From assembly GCA_024280775.1 (NCBI GenBank), contig JAJRPM010000013.1, positions 62,001 through 126,000 on the forward strand: a stretch of 64,000 nucleotides of DNA, read 5' to 3'. The translations under genes were made by a program, and so were the position numbers. Of this stretch, positions 13,749 to 22,028 are shown one piece after another. This DNA comes from Candidatus Zixiibacteriota bacterium. GTDB taxonomy: Bacteria; Zixibacteria; MSB-5A5; GN15; JACZUZ01. The notes below the pieces were generated by a model. It was given only the letters and a program-made list of their open reading frames with translations, searched no databases and had not been told where the DNA came from. Within the stretch, counting starts at the first letter, position 1. Each line of letters begins with the position of its first letter.

Positions 13749-14015
13749 ATACTTCCCTGTTCGCTCTCCTCTTGGAGAATCTCTCCGGCATACGACAACC
13801 TTAGCGCCGCGCAGACTTTCATCCTGAGCGTAGCGAAGGTTCTTCTTCGATTCGTCCTGCTAACAACCAACAAGATACTTCGCTTCGCTCAGCATGACAC
13901 CCACCCGAATGGCGCATCCTGCGCCCTCCCGAATGTAGCTTTTCTCGCACAGTCACACAATACTTACCCGGCTTTAGCGCTTGTCTGACCTTCGCATGAG
14001 CGCTAACTTTCCTCT
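13749..14015. other. Divergent intergenic region carrying a palindromic repeat
   Basis: 267 bp between the divergent GNAT and M50-HlyD genes. Most of its middle is copy 1 of the 80-bp palindromic element; the remainder must hold both promoters, for which I see no clear consensus. Confidence 0.5.
13818..13898. repeat. 80-bp palindromic repeat element, copy 1
   Basis: The end reads CTTCGCTTCGCTCAGCATGAC and the opposite end TCATCCTGAGCGTAGCGAAG, giving an imperfect terminal inverted repeat. Copies of nearly the same length lie at 41473-41552, 42383-42462 (opposite orientation) and 49720-49801. All are intergenic. The form is that of a MITE or REP-like element with no coding capacity. Confidence 0.85.
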
Positions 14016-16409
14016 ATGCCCTCAAATCCGACAAAACAAGGAGACACCCACCCTGATAGGTATGACCACCCAGGTAATCTCCCTAAAATTCGCGACGACC
14101 TGGTCTCATCTCGCAGCGAATCCCAGGGGCAAATGTTCGTAATCATCAAAGACCCTCGCACCGGCCGCTATTTTCGAGTCCGCGAGCCGGAGTTCTGGCT
14201 CATCAACCAATTCAATGGCAAGCGCTCCGCAGATCAAATCGCAGTCCTCTTTGCGGATAAATTCAACATGGAATTACCCGCCACTGCAATAGAAAAATTC
14301 GCTCAAAAACTCGACTCACTCTTCTTTCTCGATACTGACCGCGCCGAATACGAGTCCAATCGGGCAATTCACAATACTCAGGACAACGAGAATCGCTCTA
14401 CTCTCTCAAAAATTCTGTTTCTAAAACTAGTATCATTCGACCCGACGAGTTTTCTGGACTCCATGCTAAAAGTATATCGCCCGATCCACGGTAAACTTCT
14501 CTTCGGCCTTTCATGGTTGTTCATGCTCTATGGACTAGGGGTAATGTGGAACAACATCGGCGCCTTCGCCCACGGCCTGGCCGATATTTTCTCATTAGGC
14601 TCGATATTCACCGCTATGATCGCTTTGGCTATAGTGATATTCCTGCATGAGCTGGCGCATGCAATAACCTGTCGCATTCACGGTGGCCAGGTCACCGAAG
14701 TCGGTTTCCTGCTCCTGTATTTTGAGCCATGTTTTTTTACCAATCTCTCCGATGCCTGGCTGTTCTCCGAGAAGAAACACCGCCTCGCGGTAATCTGGGC
14801 CGGACCATTTATGCAAATGCTAACCCTGGCTGCAGTGGTCCTGCTATGGCGAATCACGGTAGTCGGCTCGGCCATCAACCAAATCGCACAAATCAGCGCA
14901 ATTGTTTCACTAGTGACAATACTTTTTAATTTCAACCCGCTAATCAAACTCGACGGTTACTATTTGCTCTCAGACTGGCTGGAAATCCCCAACCTGCGAC
15001 GCAAAGCCTTCAAGTATTTCGGATCCCGCGCTAAACAGGCTCTATTTGGCATTGAAGATGACAGCTTCAACCCCGAGGAGTACACCCCTCGGGAGCGAAA
15101 AATACTCATGCGCTATGCCATCGCCTCAGTCCTATACTCTGCCATCCTGCTCGGCTATATCGGGTTTATCGCCGGAAGCTGGCTAATAGAGACTTTCGGC
15201 CTGGCCGGCGCGCTGGTATTGATAGCCACTCCGTTGTATATTCTACGTAAGGAATTGGTTGCGAGTATTCGCTATCTATCTAACCCTATGAAAGTTACAA
15301 AAAACATATTCAGCAGTCCCTTGCGAAGCATCTCGTATATCCTTTTCGGGATAGTTGTCGTAGTGGTGGTGTTTTTTGTGCCGTTCAAAGAGCGTGTGAG
15401 CGGCACAGTCGAGTTACTACCAATACAACGTTTCGCTATCAGCGCCGGCTCCGGCGGACAGGTATTCACCGAAATGAGAATATGCGGTGATAAACCAGAC
15501 CTGAAAACCGGCTACCTCAATATGAGCTCCTTCGACCTCTCAGCGTTGAGCATCAGCAAGCGAGTCTCTGCCGGAGAAATCGTCTCAGCAGGAGATACCT
15601 TGCTGGCGCTCCAATCAAATCAAGTCACCTCAGAATTAGAAGTAGCGCGTTCAGCCCTGACGACACTAGAAGCCCAACTGGCGCTTTTGAAATCTCCACC
15701 CAAGGCCGAAAGCCTGATGGTTCTAGTCGCCGATGCGCAGGCCTATGAATCCGAGTTTGAGCGAGCAACCTCCGAACTTAGTCGCAAACGCGAACTCTAT
15801 AGCAAACACCTTATTGCAAAAAACGAACTGGAAGACGCAGAATCCGCTGTCGGAATCAGCGCCTCAAAATGGAACTCCGCCAAATCTGTGGTTGAACTCC
15901 ACAAATCCCCCCCCAAACCGGAGCAGGAAGCCGTCATCAATAGCGATATCATCCAACAACAAGCCCGCATAAAGTTCCTCGAATCCCAAGTCTCCGCTCA
16001 AGTCATCACCAGTCCCTTCGATGGAAAAGTGGTCGAGGGAGCAGGCGAATCTGAATTCCTAGTGGTCATTGATGAAAGCCAAATTGAAGCGCGTATTCAC
16101 GTCTCAGATTTTGACCTGACTAAGGTAAGCCTGGGCCAAAACGTATCACTACGTGTGCGAAGCTACAGCTCTGAGACATTCGAAGGGCGCGTAAACCGCA
16201 TCAGCCAGGTCGGCTTTCGGCAGGAAATCCAAAATACCGCAAACACCGGAGAATTTGTAGTAGCGGCGATTTACCAGAATACTGAGGGAAAACTGCGACC
16301 GGGGATGAGCGGTTATGCGAAAATCGATATCGGCGAAAAAAATGCCTTCAATCTCATAGCCCAAAAAGTCCGCTCCTTCATAAGAGTGGAATTCTGGTCC
16401 CTATGGTAA
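14016..16409 (+). CDS. PqqD-like / M50 zinc protease / HlyD fusion protein
   Basis: A 797-aa membrane protein with three parts. Residues about 25-106 resemble PqqD, the domain that binds leader peptides of ribosomal natural products (RIKDP-type start, FWLINQFNGKRSADQIA, SLFFLD). Residues about 155-430 form an M50 site-2-type protease with HELAH at 211-215 and a third ligand region NPLIKLDGYY (Asp313), embedded in several membrane helices. From about 435 to the end is an HlyD-type adaptor: membrane helix, barrel-sandwich halves split by a coiled coil (about 535-660), and a closing beta domain. Such proteins are associated with maturation and export of small peptides. A tiny Gly-rich peptide gene with its own promoter lies 373 bp downstream. 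The actual substrate is inferred, not shown. Confidence 0.85.
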   Translation: MPSNPTKQGDTHPDRYDHPGNLPKIRDDLVSSRSESQGQMFVIIKDPRTGRYFRVREPEFWLINQFNGKRSADQIAVLFADKFNMELPATAIEKFAQKLDSLFFLDTDRAEYESNRAIHNTQDNENRSTLSKILFLKLVSFDPTSFLDSMLKVYRPIHGKLLFGLSWLFMLYGLGVMWNNIGAFAHGLADIFSLGSIFTAMIALAIVIFLHELAHAITCRIHGGQVTEVGFLLLYFEPCFFTNLSDAWLFSEKKHRLAVIWAGPFMQMLTLAAVVLLWRITVVGSAINQIAQISAIVSLVTILFNFNPLIKLDGYYLLSDWLEIPNLRRKAFKYFGSRAKQALFGIEDDSFNPEEYTPRERKILMRYAIASVLYSAILLGYIGFIAGSWLIETFGLAGALVLIATPLYILRKELVASIRYLSNPMKVTKNIFSSPLRSISYILFGIVVVVVVFFVPFKERVSGTVELLPIQRFAISAGSGGQVFTEMRICGDKPDLKTGYLNMSSFDLSALSISKRVSAGEIVSAGDTLLALQSNQVTSELEVARSALTTLEAQLALLKSPPKAESLMVLVADAQAYESEFERATSELSRKRELYSKHLIAKNELEDAESAVGISASKWNSAKSVVELHKSPPKPEQEAVINSDIIQQQARIKFLESQVSAQVITSPFDGKVVEGAGESEFLVVIDESQIEARIHVSDFDLTKVSLGQNVSLRVRSYSSETFEGRVNRISQVGFRQEIQNTANTGEFVVAAIYQNTEGKLRPGMSGYAKIDIGEKNAFNLIAQKVRSFIRVEFWSLW

Positions 16410-16501
16410 TCAGGGCTTCGCTGTAAACCGCTTCGAGTCAATAGATTACAAACGGAAACTCTTATGAGCATACTGCGTATATACAGTCATAGTTTTGGCC
16501 T

Positions 16502-16536
16502 TTTCCGCCACGCTGAAATTCAGAGCCAGGCGGAAA
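16502..16536. promoter_or_regulatory. Inverted repeat just upstream of the peptide promoter
   Basis: Perfect 8-bp arms TTTCCGCC (16502-16509) and GGCGGAAA (16529-16536) enclose a second small dyad (CTGAA/TTCAG). The repeat ends 4 bp before the TTGACA box. It lacks a following T-run on either strand, so an operator or structured site is more likely than a terminator for the upstream gene. Confidence 0.5.
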
Positions 16537-16540
16537 GGAC

Positions 16541-16568
16541 TTGACACAAGGTTAGATTAGTCTATCTT
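16541..16568 (+). promoter_or_regulatory. Predicted sigma-70-type promoter of the small-peptide transcript
   Basis: A perfect -35 box TTGACA (16541-16546) is followed, after a 16-bp spacer, by TATCTT (16563-16568), four of six bases of the -10 consensus. An imperfect dyad at 16554-16582 (AGATT...CTATCT TTAC AGATAG AATCT) covers the -10 and the expected start site, so it could be an operator or the first hairpin of the RNA. Confidence 0.55.
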
Positions 16569-16582
16569 TACAGATAGAATCT

Positions 16583-16782
16583 CCCTCCGCCGCCGCCCTT
16601 TGGATATTCGAGGGTAAATGGAAGGCGAGCGCGGGAGTCTTGCAAGGAAGTAAGGGTGGTTACCCGAGAGGGTATTCCACATTGAAATTGAGTCACACCC
16701 GGTCAGTCACCTTTGTCAGATGACTGAGGCGCAGGTGCTTGATTCGGGAACGGATTTGAACAACACGGAAGGAGGTGATTCT
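16583..16782 (+). ncRNA. Candidate structured 5' leader of the small-peptide gene
   Basis: About 200 nt between the predicted promoter and the peptide start. Pairing visible by eye includes a hairpin at 16656-16680 with GTGG/CCAC and TACCC/GGGTA closing a GAGA (GNRA) loop. A CAGTCA/TGACTG stem lies near 16705-16726, and CACCT (16708-16712) can pair with AGGTG (16733-16737) in an alternative or pseudoknot pairing. An 11-codon frame (ATG at 16618, MEGERGSLARK) could be a leader peptide. It matches no riboswitch class that I recognise. A cis-regulatory leader is inference; covariation would be needed. Confidence 0.35.
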
Positions 16783-16884
16783 TTGGAAAAATACGATCTA
16801 GCCATTGAAGAGCTTGAAGCAAAAATAGCTCCAATTGGCATCAGTCAAGGTGGTCAGCGTTGGGGCGGTTTCGGTGGCGGTTGA
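16783..16884 (+). CDS. Small Gly-rich peptide, candidate RiPP-type precursor
   Basis: A 33-residue peptide starting at TTG 16783, 7 nt after a full-consensus Shine-Dalgarno (AAGGAGGTGAT, 16769-16779), the strongest ribosome-binding site noticed in the window. The N-terminal half is an amphipathic acidic segment (EKYDLAIEELEAKIAP). The C-terminal half is core-like (IGISQGGQRWGGFGGG). This leader/core architecture resembles precursors of ribosomally made, modified peptides. In-frame starts further upstream (ATG 16720, 54 aa) are possible but lack a ribosome-binding site. The gene has its own promoter and terminator and follows a PqqD-M50-HlyD gene. No modifying enzyme lies in the window. Alternatives are a small regulatory protein or a chance frame. 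Confidence 0.6.
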   Translation: MEKYDLAIEELEAKIAPIGISQGGQRWGGFGGG

Positions 16885-16953
16885 TAAACCCACCGGCTTC
16901 CTTCGCTTTGAAGCCACTGTAGTAGTTTGCTGATACTGCAAAGTATTGGCCCC

Positions 16954-16990
16954 GAAGGCGGGATGGACGAACATCCCGTCTTCTTTTTTT
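16954..16990 (+). terminator. Strong intrinsic terminator of the small-peptide transcript
   Basis: A 12-bp stem (16954-16965 with 16972-16983, one G-T pair) with a 6-nt loop is followed by TTTTTTT at 16984-16990. It lies 70 bp after the peptide stop and ends 33 bp before the convergent kinase gene, closing a transcript of roughly 0.4 kb. Confidence 0.9.
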
Positions 16991-17023: not shown

Positions 17024-20000
17024 TCAATCAACATTCATTCTCTGCTTGAGTTGCATGATTTCTATCGACATGCGATTCATAAAAGGCTGATGAGTAAACA
17101 ACCGCACGCTTTCCTTATTGGGCAAAACCGACGCGAGCTTCCTGATAGAAACCATAGCCCGTATCAACGCGGCATAGCTCTCCTCAAATTCACCACACTT
17201 CGACCCAACCTCAGCAAACACAATTTCCAGTTTCCATGAATGCAAACACTCACTCTGCGATTGCGCCTGAACATCGGCAAAACTTAGTCGCTCAAAAATC
17301 TCCTGCAAAGAATCTTGCCCAATACTTGAATCCATCATTCGGAGTTCAGCCCACAAACGCCAAAAACGAAACTGATCAATGTCCTCTGCGACACTTTGAA
17401 AAAACTCAGCGGCCTTCTCCATGTATTCTGCAGCCTTGACCGGGTCGCCCGATTCAATAAAGTACTCGGCCAACGCCAATTCACACAGGGCGATATCCCG
17501 AGGCGCCTTTGATGTCAATCCCAATTCAAGCGCAAACAACAAACGCTCTAAATCAACATTATCCGTTGCCAAGATACATTGTATTTGCGCCTGTTTATCA
17601 CCAATCTCTTGCGATAACTTAGACGCCCGCTCTATACAAAGGCCATTCTTATCCGGTAACTGCATTTGGCCATACAACTCAGCCTGAATAAGCAAGCATC
17701 CCACTTCCAAAACCTTATCGGAAAGCTCAGCAGCAGTGGACATACTTCGCAAAGCCAAGCGAAGCGCATGATCCCATTGCCCGGTGCGCAGGAGAATCCT
17801 GGCGAGGTTCGCATCAAAGATTGCCTTGCTATGTTTATCATGCAATTCTTCCGACAGCTCACGTCCACGCCGAATATGCGAGAGCGCATCAGCAAACCTG
17901 CCTGCCGTAATTGCGCAGGAAACAAAATTATCCAGATTGGTGATTATTTCCTTCTTACTGCTCTCTACTTCATTGATCTGAAGCGCCTCTTCCAAAACTT
18001 CCAGCGCTTCTGGCAGTTTCCCCTGGAGGTAGTATGTATAACCTAGATTATTGAGCGTACGCGCAACTTCCGAACGATTCTCCAGCTTGCGCTTCATTGC
18101 CAGTGACAGCGAATATATATAAATCGCCCTTTCGAGCCTTCCAGTGACTGCGTAAATCGAAGCAATGTTATTAACAGTCGATGAAATATCCGCGAGGTCA
18201 TCGCGTTTGCGATGCAGTTTCAGCGCCCGCCGATAAGAATTGAGCGCTTCTTCATACTGCGCCACAATCCAATGAATGTTACCCATGTTATTGGTAACCC
18301 GAGCCAATTCTGTTGTGTCCTCAAGCTCACCATATAACCGCTCGGCTTCCCGTAACGCTTTCAGCCCCGCCTTGAAATCCTGTTTCAGCTTATACAGATC
18401 ACCGAGATCTTTGTAGGTTTCCGCCAAAATACGAGATTTTTTTGAACCGGACAGCTCAACAATACGAACATAACGCGATTCAGCGCCGTTCATATCCCCT
18501 GAGTCTCTACGAATATCCGCATCACGATGTAAAGTCTCAATCAGAATCTCGGTCGCATCAGTTTTCTCAGCAAAGGATGCAATCTTTCCTAGCAACGACA
18601 GTGCTTCGATTTGTCGATTCTCGCTCTTTAGCTCTTCACAATACCTAAAAGCGCTATTGGCGCTCTTTTCGAGCTCCTCGGCTTGCAATTGAAGTGTGGC
18701 AAGTAACCCCAACATCTCACCTGAGACTTCGACGGAGCTCCTCCTGTCAGAACTCGTTTCTCTGGAAATCAACAGCTTCGCCAACAGGCAAGATTGCATC
18801 TTGATAGTCGATTCCGCCAAATCACCGCGAACAATTTCAACCAACGCTGAATTCGCGACACTAGGCCTGAGACCTTTGGGCGGATAAATAATCTGAAGTA
18901 GCTTACCTACATCACCAACAACAGCGCAACGAATTATCCAGCGCGCTTCTGAAAGAGTGAGAACGCTAAACTCTTTGCGCTCCCAAATTCGCAAACGACG
19001 AGGCCAAACATATTTGTGAAAACCCTTTGTCCCGCGAATGACACCGTCAGCCCAAACCAATTCCCCACTCCGGAAAGTTGCATCAAGTATCAAACGAATC
19101 TTGCGAACATCACCATTGCTAATGCGATGTAAATAATTTCGAGCGGGTAGGTTGAACCCCGGAAGAGTTGAAAGCTCTTCAATGTCCTGCTCTAGGGTCA
19201 CCGGTAACAACTGGCTCGGTCGAATCGCTTTTCGGAAGGGATACATCGCTCCCTGCTCTTCGAGAGCTTCACAAACAGCAAAACCACTCTTCGGACGCAA
19301 AGCCGGCTCTTTGGCCATCATTGACTGGATTAATTTCGCCAAATCCTGCGGGAACCCTTCCAACTCTTTATCCAAACGCGGTGGCATATACTCTGCGACA
19401 GCCGCTGAGATTGCGGCGGGGTCATTGGTTTCAAATAGAAAAGGATGACGGCCACAAGCGAGGTAGTAGGCTATCACACCCAGTGAGAAAATATCGGACT
19501 GCGGTGTTAGCTTGTCATGTGACGTAGCTTCATGTAACGTAGTTTCATGTGACGTAGCTTCATGTAACGTAGTTTCATGTAACATAGTCTCCGGAGCGCT
19601 ATACCCCAAAGTGCCCATGCCGCTCCGACTTTTTCCAGACTCACCAACTCGAATCCCCATAGAAAAATCTATTAGCTGTGGGAAAAATATCCGTTTGAAA
19701 TCGTATCCATCTTCGAAGATGTTCTCAGGAAAAAATAGGTTGTGAGGCTTGCAATCACCATGCGCCACAGACTTGAGTTCAAGATAATAGAGAGACATTG
19801 CAAGAGCCGATATCAACTCTCGTAGAAGCGCAGGACGAATAGGTCTTTCGATATCAATTAATGATTTACCATGAACAACCGGCATTATCAAACCAGCTTT
19901 TGGATTGGAGCAAATAATAGCTGAAACTTGCGTTACGCTGGGATGATTTAGGTTTTTGGTGAGATCAAGCTCACGCTCAACCGCGCAAGCAAAACTATCA

Positions 20001-20200
20001 ATATCCCCTGCGCCGCCATCTTGTGGACCTACAGCGGCAAGTGGATATTTGTATGCGAACTGACGTCCGTCGGATTCCCTTTGGACTAACGCTACTTCAG
20101 ATGTGCCTCCCTTACCGAGTAGTTTGACAAAGCGGTATTCCGGGGGAAGATCAAATGAGGCAGACTCAGTCTTTGGATTTTTGCTCTTCAGGCTCTTCAC
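17024..20200 (-). CDS. Serine/threonine protein kinase with C-terminal TPR array
   Basis: A 1058-aa cytoplasmic signalling protein. The kinase domain (about residues 22-320) has the Gly loop GKGGTSEV, Lys51, a catalytic loop HGDCKPHN (Asp149, Asn154; HGD replaces HRD), DFS in place of DFG (178-180) and APE (202-204). Right after APE, residues 206-231 are pentapeptide repeats (LHEAT/SHETT) from a 15-nt tandem DNA repeat at 19515-19586. A helical linker (about 320-430) follows, then tetratricopeptide repeats from about 440 to 1000 (for example ARVTNNMGNIHWIVAQYEEAL, VARTLNNLGYTYYLQGKLPEAL). The gene starts at GTG and overlaps the upstream histidine kinase by 35 nt, so the two are almost certainly made together. 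Its substrates are unknown. Confidence 0.9.
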   Translation of the reverse strand: MKSLKSKNPKTESASFDLPPEYRFVKLLGKGGTSEVALVQRESDGRQFAYKYPLAAVGPQDGGAGDIDSFACAVERELDLTKNLNHPSVTQVSAIICSNPKAGLIMPVVHGKSLIDIERPIRPALLRELISALAMSLYYLELKSVAHGDCKPHNLFFPENIFEDGYDFKRIFFPQLIDFSMGIRVGESGKSRSGMGTLGYSAPETMLHETTLHEATSHETTLHEATSHDKLTPQSDIFSLGVIAYYLACGRHPFLFETNDPAAISAAVAEYMPPRLDKELEGFPQDLAKLIQSMMAKEPALRPKSGFAVCEALEEQGAMYPFRKAIRPSQLLPVTLEQDIEELSTLPGFNLPARNYLHRISNGDVRKIRLILDATFRSGELVWADGVIRGTKGFHKYVWPRRLRIWERKEFSVLTLSEARWIIRCAVVGDVGKLLQIIYPPKGLRPSVANSALVEIVRGDLAESTIKMQSCLLAKLLISRETSSDRRSSVEVSGEMLGLLATLQLQAEELEKSANSAFRYCEELKSENRQIEALSLLGKIASFAEKTDATEILIETLHRDADIRRDSGDMNGAESRYVRIVELSGSKKSRILAETYKDLGDLYKLKQDFKAGLKALREAERLYGELEDTTELARVTNNMGNIHWIVAQYEEALNSYRRALKLHRKRDDLADISSTVNNIASIYAVTGRLERAIYIYSLSLAMKRKLENRSEVARTLNNLGYTYYLQGKLPEALEVLEEALQINEVESSKKEIITNLDNFVSCAITAGRFADALSHIRRGRELSEELHDKHSKAIFDANLARILLRTGQWDHALRLALRSMSTAAELSDKVLEVGCLLIQAELYGQMQLPDKNGLCIERASKLSQEIGDKQAQIQCILATDNVDLERLLFALELGLTSKAPRDIALCELALAEYFIESGDPVKAAEYMEKAAEFFQSVAEDIDQFRFWRLWAELRMMDSSIGQDSLQEIFERLSFADVQAQSQSECLHSWKLEIVFAEVGSKCGEFEESYAALIRAMVSIRKLASVLPNKESVRLFTHQPFMNRMSIEIMQLKQRMNVD
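19515..19586 (-). repeat. 15-nt coding tandem repeat in the kinase gene
   Basis: About five near-identical 15-nt units (CATGTGACGTAGCTT and CATGTAACGTAGTTT alternating) encode the pentapeptides LHEAT and SHETT directly behind the APE motif of the kinase domain. Loss or gain of units would keep the frame and change loop length. Confidence 0.9.
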
Positions 20201-22028
20201 GATTCACAGGTAGTGTCAGACGAAATAGTGTTCCTTCGCCAAATTTTGATTCAACAACAAGCTCACCGCCATGACGAGCCGCTATCTTCTTGCAATTGGC
20301 GAGGCCGAGTCCATGGCCGCTTTCTTTGGTCGTGAAATGAGGGCGGAACAGATTCTTGAGTGTGTCCTCTGTCATGCCCATGGCGTTATCAATTACTTCT
20401 GCTACTATGCGCTCTTTGCGCGCATCGAGACGAACATTAATTCCCAAACGCTTCTCAAACTTGGACTCTTCGCCCTTTTTCTCTGCGCTTTCACGTTCGC
20501 TCTTCTCTCTCTCCTCAAGAGCATCAGCGGCATTGTTAAACAGATTCAGAAAAATCTGCTGAATCTGACCAACATCAATACTAATCTGCGGAATTGAAGC
20601 GTCAATTTCCGTGGTAAACAATATCTCTTTGAATCGTGTCTGTGCGCGCAACGAAAACAGCAAGTCCTCAACAAGATGCTTCAAGTCATAGCGCAAGAAT
20701 TCGCTATCCAACTTACTGAAGTCCATCAAACCGTCAGTAAAGCGCTTCATACTACTAATGTTGTCTGTAATCCTCTGGCAGTTAAAGCCAACTTTTTCAA
20801 AGTTTTCAGACTTAAGATTACGCTCAAGCAATTCCGCGTTGTTGTTTATGATCGTCAGATAGTTATTGAGCTCATGTCCAATAGACGCCGCCATCTCGCC
20901 GCGCGCTACAAGTTTTTCAGAGAGAATCACATACTTTTCCAGTATTACATTCTCAGTAATATCCTCAAGCGCCATAATCAATCCATCCCCCCCCAGCGGC
21001 AATTTGCTCAAAGGAGAAAGTTTAATGTTAAGCGCCTTCTCTACATAACCTGTATTGTGAAAATAGCGAGAATCCTCAAATGATTGCTGAGTATTGAAGG
21101 CAATATCTATCATCTGACGCCAACGTGATGTTTCACTATCGGGCACAAACTCAAAGAAACGTGTCGGCTCTTCTGAATCACCTACAACGGAAACCTCTTT
21201 CTTGTTCTTATCGAAAATAGCCAAACCGGCGTCATTGATAGAAACAAGTTGATACTGCGAATCAATAACCAAAATACCTACCGGCGACTTATTGATAACA
21301 TTTTCAGTGAAGCTCTTTAGGTCGAGAAGATGTTCATATAGTGACGCATTGTGAATCGCCGAAGCCGCCAAACCGGCGAGAAGCTGAAAGACATACAAGT
21401 CAGACTTAAGAAAATGTTTGCTCTGCAATGAATTATCCAGATAAATAACACCAATGACATTCTGCTTTAGTTTTAGTGGAACGCAGATTATTGAGCGTAG
21501 GTGCAATTCCTGAATAGAAGCCTGGTCCGAAAAACGGTCATCATCCTGCGCATCCGAAGCAAAAATCGCCTTGCCGGACTTGGCGACTTTTGTAGCGATA
21601 CTATTGGAAATTTTCAGACCATCACCTGAGAGTTCTTTGCTGGAGATGTTGTATGCGGTTTTGCATTGCAAGGAGCCGTAATCATCCAACAGCATTATGA
21701 ATCCACGCTCAGCGCCAAGTAACTCAATGGCGTTCTTCATCACATTATCAAGAGTATCCTCAAGACGCATCGTGGAATTGATTCCCAGCGATATCTCAAG
21801 TAAGGCCTGCAAATCCTCGGTGGATTGTTGGTCAGCCTGTGCGGCGGCTTTTATGCGCGGCTCATTGCGCGCGATATCTTTCAACTGCTCTTCGAATTCC
21901 TGCAGTATTGATCCTGTTTCGTGTAACGGATCACGCTCCGAGTCTTGAGCGGCAGAAACCTGAGTACCCGAACCGAGCGGACTACTAGTACTAGAATCTT
22001 GATTGGATCTTGATTTTGAGTAATTCAT
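20166..22028 (-). CDS. GAF-PAS sensor histidine kinase
   Basis: A 620-aa soluble histidine kinase. A polar N-terminus (1-60) precedes a GAF domain (about 75-230), a PAS-like domain (about 240-360) and a dimerisation domain with the phosphorylated histidine in SIGHELNNYL (His385). The ATPase domain shows an N-box (LNLFNNAADALEE), a G1 region (VIDNAMGM), an F/G2 region (FTTKESGHGLGL) and a closing GEGTLFRLTLPV. There is no membrane segment, so it likely senses a cytoplasmic signal. The overlapping downstream gene is a TPR Ser/Thr kinase, and no response regulator is nearby. This suggests a direct histidine kinase to Ser/Thr kinase partnership or a distant regulator. Confidence 0.92.
   Translation of the reverse strand: MNYSKSRSNQDSSTSSPLGSGTQVSAAQDSERDPLHETGSILQEFEEQLKDIARNEPRIKAAAQADQQSTEDLQALLEISLGINSTMRLEDTLDNVMKNAIELLGAERGFIMLLDDYGSLQCKTAYNISSKELSGDGLKISNSIATKVAKSGKAIFASDAQDDDRFSDQASIQELHLRSIICVPLKLKQNVIGVIYLDNSLQSKHFLKSDLYVFQLLAGLAASAIHNASLYEHLLDLKSFTENVINKSPVGILVIDSQYQLVSINDAGLAIFDKNKKEVSVVGDSEEPTRFFEFVPDSETSRWRQMIDIAFNTQQSFEDSRYFHNTGYVEKALNIKLSPLSKLPLGGDGLIMALEDITENVILEKYVILSEKLVARGEMAASIGHELNNYLTIINNNAELLERNLKSENFEKVGFNCQRITDNISSMKRFTDGLMDFSKLDSEFLRYDLKHLVEDLLFSLRAQTRFKEILFTTEIDASIPQISIDVGQIQQIFLNLFNNAADALEEREKSERESAEKKGEESKFEKRLGINVRLDARKERIVAEVIDNAMGMTEDTLKNLFRPHFTTKESGHGLGLANCKKIAARHGGELVVESKFGEGTLFRLTLPVNREEPEEQKSKD

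Follow-up and report, generated by a model that had tools for sequence, protein, structure and literature searches.

A candidate leader-guided peptide processing and export system in Zixiibacteriota, related in logic to daptide processing

Organization of the locus

The window analyzed here, a stretch of 64,000 nucleotides from a Zixiibacteriota genome of 3.17 Mb, carries a gene for a three-domain fusion protein, followed on the same strand by a very short peptide gene and, on the opposite strand, by two kinase genes. The features are as follows.

14016..16409, + strand: PqqD/RRE-M50-HlyD fusion of 797 aa, a single ORF (Pfam, NCBIfam, predicted structure)
14067..14324, + strand: RRE-like (PqqD-fold) domain, predicted leader binder, about residues 18-103 (model, Foldseek, PqqD Pfam matches)
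14595..14981, + strand: M50 site-2 protease core, with HELAH at 14646-14660 and NPLIKLDG at 14934-14957 (invariant catalytic residues, NCBIfam daptide_HExxH)
15381..16343, + strand: HlyD/EmrA/MacA-type periplasmic adaptor, about residues 456-776 (Pfam, fold matches, model)
16541..16568, + strand: putative sigma-70-like promoter of the peptide, TTGACA-16-TATCTT (kept in the sister genome)
16769..16779, + strand: Shine-Dalgarno sequence AAGGAGGTGAT (a strong one precedes nearly all Zixiibacteriota family members)
16783..16884, + strand: precursor peptide gene, TTG start, 33 aa (homologues across the phylum)
16783..16833, + strand: leader MEKYDLAIEELEAKIAP (invariant residues; boundary placed by analogy with the daptide leader ELDPMEAP, PMC10036551)
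16834..16881, + strand: predicted core IGISQGGQRWGGFGGG (IGISQGGQ conserved, RWGGFGGG not common to the same-genus relative)
16954..16990, + strand: intrinsic terminator of 12 pairs (hairpin and T run 16954-16983) and then seven T (partly kept in the sister genome)
17024..20200, - strand: Ser/Thr kinase-TPR (STK-TPR) gene, convergent with the peptide (Pfam, neighbourhood conservation)
20166..22028, - strand: GAF/PAS histidine kinase gene, second in the conserved block (Pfam, neighbourhood conservation)

The first-pass annotation of this unit had missed the conserved convergent STK-TPR and histidine kinase genes. Upstream of the fusion gene, positions 13820-13900 hold a repeat-like intergenic sequence (CATCCTGAGCGTAGCGAAGG...).

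The peptide gene and its signals

The 33-codon frame is a real gene. A TTG-started frame at 16783-16884 behind the consensus Shine-Dalgarno sequence had been singled out from the window alone; both were present. Genomes throughout the phylum carry a gene for this peptide, which therefore recurs well beyond the window, and it is not a product of chance. The constraint at synonymous sites that had been proposed as a check was found as well: a codon comparison of 201 pairs, which were chosen at 70% amino-acid identity and overlap and whose pN is therefore biased down, gave a pS of 0.67 and a pN of 0.09 for the leader, and a pS of 0.66 and a pN of 0.19 for the core. With a pS of 0.67, silent positions have come close to saturation, yet the protein has been kept. 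A non-coding or chance ORF might be suspected from the unusual TTG start and from the lack of the C-terminal extension in the sister genome, but the conservation of the frame, its Shine-Dalgarno sequence, the codon-level constraint and the co-occurrence with the fusion leave this reading with a virtually nil probability, and conservation has already refuted it.

The 12-bp terminator with seven T was found as annotated. The TTGACA promoter fared less well, since the match exists and is kept in the sister genome but is by itself not above chance, with one match to the promoter consensus against 1.2 expected; the heptamer CTTGACA was observed in 27 of 68 regions upstream of the peptide. Moreover, the sister genome matches the window unusually well over 16690-16765, ahead of the Shine-Dalgarno sequence (GATGACTGAGGCG and its flanks), and this segment could be a regulatory leader RNA. 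Rfam detected no RNA family in the window as a whole, around the peptide or in 12 related loci, the weak matches being judged as chance.

Leader and core anatomy

The leader follows the family consensus xLx[IV]ExLExRIAP. Across 67 Zixiibacteriota peptides, no variation is seen at L-7, E-6 and P-1, and very little at Y-14, L-12, E-9, R/K-4, I-3 and A-2. Daptide leaders have the motif ELDPMEAP and are reported to be removed by an RRE-dependent intramembrane peptidase (PMC10036551). When the ELEAKIAP of the window peptide is laid on this motif, L-7, the acid at -6 and P-1 align, and on this analogy we infer cleavage after IAP, which would release IGISQGGQRWGGFGGG as the core of the window peptide.

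Most Zixiibacteriota cores counted from this boundary have 6-9 residues, with a peak at 6-8, and usually read xGxSxGGQ; the looser pattern xxSxGGQ occurs in 47/67 peptides, and the endings include GGQ, GGG, AD and ID. The conserved core is probably xGxSxGGQ directly after IAP. The core-like end GGQRWGGFGGG described earlier had to be revised accordingly in both directions, as the core most likely starts right after IAP and RWGGFGGG is missing in the same-genus relative, whose peptide ends at GGQ. Trp/Phe/Gly-rich extensions after GGQ nevertheless recur in about a dozen species.

A changed core of the form SR[YWF]G (SRYGAE, SRWGAD) was observed in two loci with tandem precursors, seven copies in L091 (12441-14156) and four in L092 (12464-13569), with no kinase-TPR gene alongside. 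Strong matches to the peptide in the phylum all sit in frames of at most 141 residues, and the possibility that the leader is a tag of large proteins was rejected.

The fusion protein

That one protein unites PqqD-like, M50 and HlyD parts, as first annotated, was borne out by Pfam (HlyD_3 at 1e-8, M50 at 7.5e-6), by the presence of HELAH and NPLIKLDGYY, and by an AlphaFold model with a mean pLDDT of 84.9, in which RRE-like strands and helices at residues 30-101, membrane helices and the HlyD domain are seen. In its PqqD-like part, the window protein falls below the Pfam threshold (PF05402, E 0.6, although this is the sole PF05402 match genome-wide), and sequence comparison of the N-terminal domain with the PDB gave only non-significant RRE matches, so that a fold search was needed; 12/52 members of the fusion family, however, match PqqD, the best at 5e-6, and the model has the RRE topology, three strands and then three helices at a pLDDT of about 90. 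Searched alone with Foldseek, this domain retrieved the lasso-peptide RRE TbiB1 at the top (E 0.004-0.02, probability 1.00), followed by ThcOx and CteB. The N-terminus is modelled as an RRE fold, for which leader binding is predicted.

The protease residues H211, E212, H215 and D313 do not vary among the 52 fusion proteins aligned and constitute the HExxH motif and distal Asp by which M50 site-2 proteases are recognized. The closest counterpart of this protease is MpaP of the daptides: the window protein scored 209.4 bits against NCBIfam daptide_HExxH, whose family cut-off is 300, and all 52 members matched the model, with scores below or near that of the window protein. The C-terminal part shows the barrel-sandwich, hairpin and beta-barrel fold of periplasmic adaptors and resembles EmrA and MacA of TolC pumps. 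TolC-like proteins are present in the window genome. A point against the export model proposed below is that the conserved neighbours of the fusion and the peptide include neither an ABC transporter nor any other energy-coupling one.

Distribution and co-occurrence in Zixiibacteriota

In a first survey, 60 relatives were searched with the fusion as query and the loci returned were scanned for short frames, and a homologous frame was found beside the fusion in nearly all of them. The recurrence of a short frame next to fusion homologues, which the first-pass annotation had set as a test of its proposal, was thus observed, with a conserved leader and a variable tail, in Zixiibacteriota and beyond. 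Of 60 fully flanked loci, drawn from a separate named collection, 49 had a motif frame no more than 1.5 kb from the fusion (30/40 in Zixiibacteriota, 19/20 in other phyla), whereas the 591 kb of flanking sequence that lay beyond 3 kb contained none. The Zixiibacteriota loci that have no adjoining frame appear to come mostly from lineages with the peptide elsewhere in the genome.

Profile searches extended this association to the phylum at large, with 132 genomes covered. Of these, 101 have the fusion, almost always as a single copy, and 104 have the peptide, as detected by a profile built from 39 peptides with hits counted at E <= 1e-3 and a clear gap to chance matches. Both were present in 97 genomes, the fusion alone in 4, the peptide alone in 7 and neither in 24 (Fisher p about 3e-16, a value that overstates independence because the genomes are related, though many fusion-peptide pairs are unlinked in the genome).

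Searches of the literature on the motif, the tails or the domain fusion returned no description. The peptide family is real and conserved, is undescribed in the libraries and papers searched, and is missed by Pfam and NCBIfam; its leader makes such precursors findable in unannotated genomes.

Processing, export and the nature of the product

The earlier proposal that the fusion recognizes, trims and exports the peptide is supported by these data through homology, namely by the RRE fold, the MpaP-like M50 protease and the EmrA/MacA-like adaptor. The cytosolic RRE domain would bind the acidic leader (L-7, E-6 ... P-1) and so bring the peptide to the M50 protease in the membrane, where it would be cut after IAP. 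The HlyD/EmrA-like domain would then pass the linear core on to an outer-membrane channel of the TolC type, encoded at another locus. The Zixiibacteriota product would be short, in most cases xGxSxGGQ, and would most likely serve as a secreted signal, possibly a pheromone. The data show the genes, their conservation, the coding constraint, the co-occurrence and the predicted domain folds, from which binding, the cleavage site, export and signalling are inferred. Overall, the evidence argues for leader-guided peptide processing and export in which the Zixiibacteriota core is probably a secreted signal.

M50 proteases usually cut membrane proteins, and an RRE might bind a leader in order to regulate, which would allow the peptide to stay on the fusion as a regulator of the protease while the real substrate is another membrane protein. 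This is highly unlikely, as the leader-core anatomy, the variable tails, the tandem paralogues and the daptide precedent better fit a substrate.

In a true RiPP, processing and export would be the same, but an enzyme from another part of the genome would act on the core beforehand. RiPP systems are characterized by RRE domains and leader peptides, sequence comparison revealed the conserved leader and variable core in a ribosomal precursor that mark this class, and the Trp/Phe/Gly-rich extensions after GGQ would suit such a product. Against this, no enzyme family is conserved near the peptide or the fusion: no modifying enzyme was conserved in the neighbourhoods compared, which reached about 10 kb for Zixiibacteriota and about 5 kb for other phyla, in agreement with the earlier remark that none is present. 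SPASM radical-SAM modification, the sole enzyme class searched genome-wide, was rejected for the window genome, which has no SPASM protein. We consider a modified product unlikely. The label RiPP given at first therefore fits the leader, the core and the RRE, the latter by predicted fold and distant sequence match, but the class is not established, since no modifying enzyme is conserved nearby.

Kinase neighbours and the signalling proposal

The reading of the core as a secreted signal derives from the association of the peptide with a kinase block. Among 74 testable non-redundant peptides, the 3' end faces an STK-TPR gene in 56 and lies on the same strand in 0, the usual gap being 30-100 bases, and 11 of the 18 exceptions are tandem copies from two genomes (4 and 7 copies). 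The peptide-STK-histidine kinase block is kept where the fusion lies tens of kilobases off or on another contig, and in differing wider contexts. In the window, the STK-TPR kinase contains a short tandem repeat, HETTLHEATSHETTLHEATS.

From this neighbourhood, the STK-TPR and GAF/PAS histidine kinases are put forward as tentative partners of the secreted peptide. No transmembrane sensor was recognized in either kinase, and consequently a secreted ligand would need re-import, or the kinases would act upstream. A wider and still more tentative reading is that of a minimal linear-peptide pheromone system of diderms, in which the RRE-site-2-protease-HlyD protein makes a signal of 6-9 residues (usually xGxSxGGQ) that is read by the STK-TPR and histidine kinases, while a sister branch, dispersed by horizontal transfer, would export conserved Gly/Asn/Pro-rich peptides, in sets, from a number of other phyla. 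Two points count against a signalling role: the two tandem genomes (4 and 7 copies) have no adjoining STK, and the long Gly/Asn/Pro-rich tails found elsewhere are unlike pheromones. To our knowledge, no peptide language is known in the host phyla; if the cores do signal, the system would offer a testable one that brings together a predicted ligand, its predicted processing enzyme and candidate receptors.

Homologous loci in other phyla

The first-pass annotation had also missed the spread of the system to other phyla. Homologous loci occur sporadically in MAGs labelled as seven or more non-Zixiibacteriota phyla, among them Verrucomicrobiota, Acidobacteriota, Planctomycetota, Eisenbacteria, Bacteroidota, Rokubacteria and Aminicenantes. 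These loci carry 1-5 adjoining precursors with the same leader and diverse Gly/Asn/Pro-rich tails, mostly longer than in Zixiibacteriota. A close homologue was found in just 1/241 Verrucomicrobiota genomes, the other matches being distant proteins with no motif frame in their short flanks, and this rarity suggests horizontal spread of the system between phyla, a reading that depends on MAG labels that may be wrong.

The tails also bear on whether the peptides might be secreted for a bioactive or structural role, as antimicrobials or matrix for instance, instead of as signals. Outside Zixiibacteriota they are about 10-110 residues long, hydrophilic and Gly/Asn/Pro-rich, with several different ones per locus, as such material might be. 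However, the tail types NPGNNNPPLNNTNNPGNEGTGGQVSTG, GYEGQPGNQ and FPPGQFPSGNPAHAPG recur almost unchanged across phyla, a pattern that differs from that of arms-race toxins, the cores in Zixiibacteriota mostly have 6-9 residues and are tied to kinases, and no immunity gene was seen, which makes this a somewhat unlikely explanation.

Several of these loci have an organization of their own. The Aminicenantes-type loci L137 (11714-12073) and L143 (7837-8321) contain 3-4 near-identical tandem precursors, MAKKSTKKVVKLNVERLEKRIAPTRAAIAMG, on the strand opposite to that of the fusion. A single acidobacterial genome (L222 1907-2209, L223 13-159, L225 802-1050) has several scattered precursors, with cores such as DGGETVLPLP... 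and DSSASFLD, together with the start of a second fusion. Kinase-AAA-TPR-sigma54 proteins were observed near the fusion in two acidobacterial loci and add to the kinase association behind the signalling proposal, and in L139, L144, L146 and L148 a gene of about 360 codons lies just downstream of the fusion, with no Pfam match in the two scanned.

Comparison with known systems

The LExLExR-like N-terminal sequence recalls the LEPR-XLL sorting signal (NF012209), which was rejected as an explanation because it exceeded its cut-off in just 3/21 system-bearing genomes, on large proteins. The epipeptide protease YydH/LiaK (NF058609) is likewise M50-type and processes a short ribosomal peptide, but only the protease part of the fusion matches it, at 43 bits against a cut-off of 225, and no radical SAM gene is conserved nearby. 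Residues 456-776 share the fold of the EmrA and MacA adaptors of TolC pumps, which here is fused to a protease and an RRE, with no MFS or ABC partner conserved nearby. In Gram-positive bacteria, Eep-type M50 proteases process linear peptide pheromones, which are then sensed by receptors of the TPR (RRNPP) kind. The present system shares with them a short, presumably linear peptide, predicted M50 processing and an adjoining TPR protein; unlike them, its hosts are diderm, its processing would be RRE-guided and its TPR is fused to a Ser/Thr kinase. It may be viewed as an example of RRE-guided processing fused to an export adaptor, with no conserved modifying enzymes, in mostly uncultured phyla.

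The closest resemblance is to daptides. Differences lie in the fusion of the protease to an HlyD adaptor and in the phyla concerned, in the score of 209 bits, which places the window protein outside the daptide protease family as delimited at 300, and in cores that do not carry the invariant C-terminal Thr; moreover, in a clustering of conserved neighbours in which not every gene was annotated, no MpaB/C/D/M-type enzyme (decarboxylase, aminotransferase, methyltransferase) recurred. The likeness consists of an RRE with an M50 protease and several precursors per locus, as in MpaP/MpaA (PMC10036551; NF041824), and of a leader with L at -7, an acid at -6 and P at -1. Although it is not a daptide and not a proven RiPP, the system is related in its logic to daptide processing.
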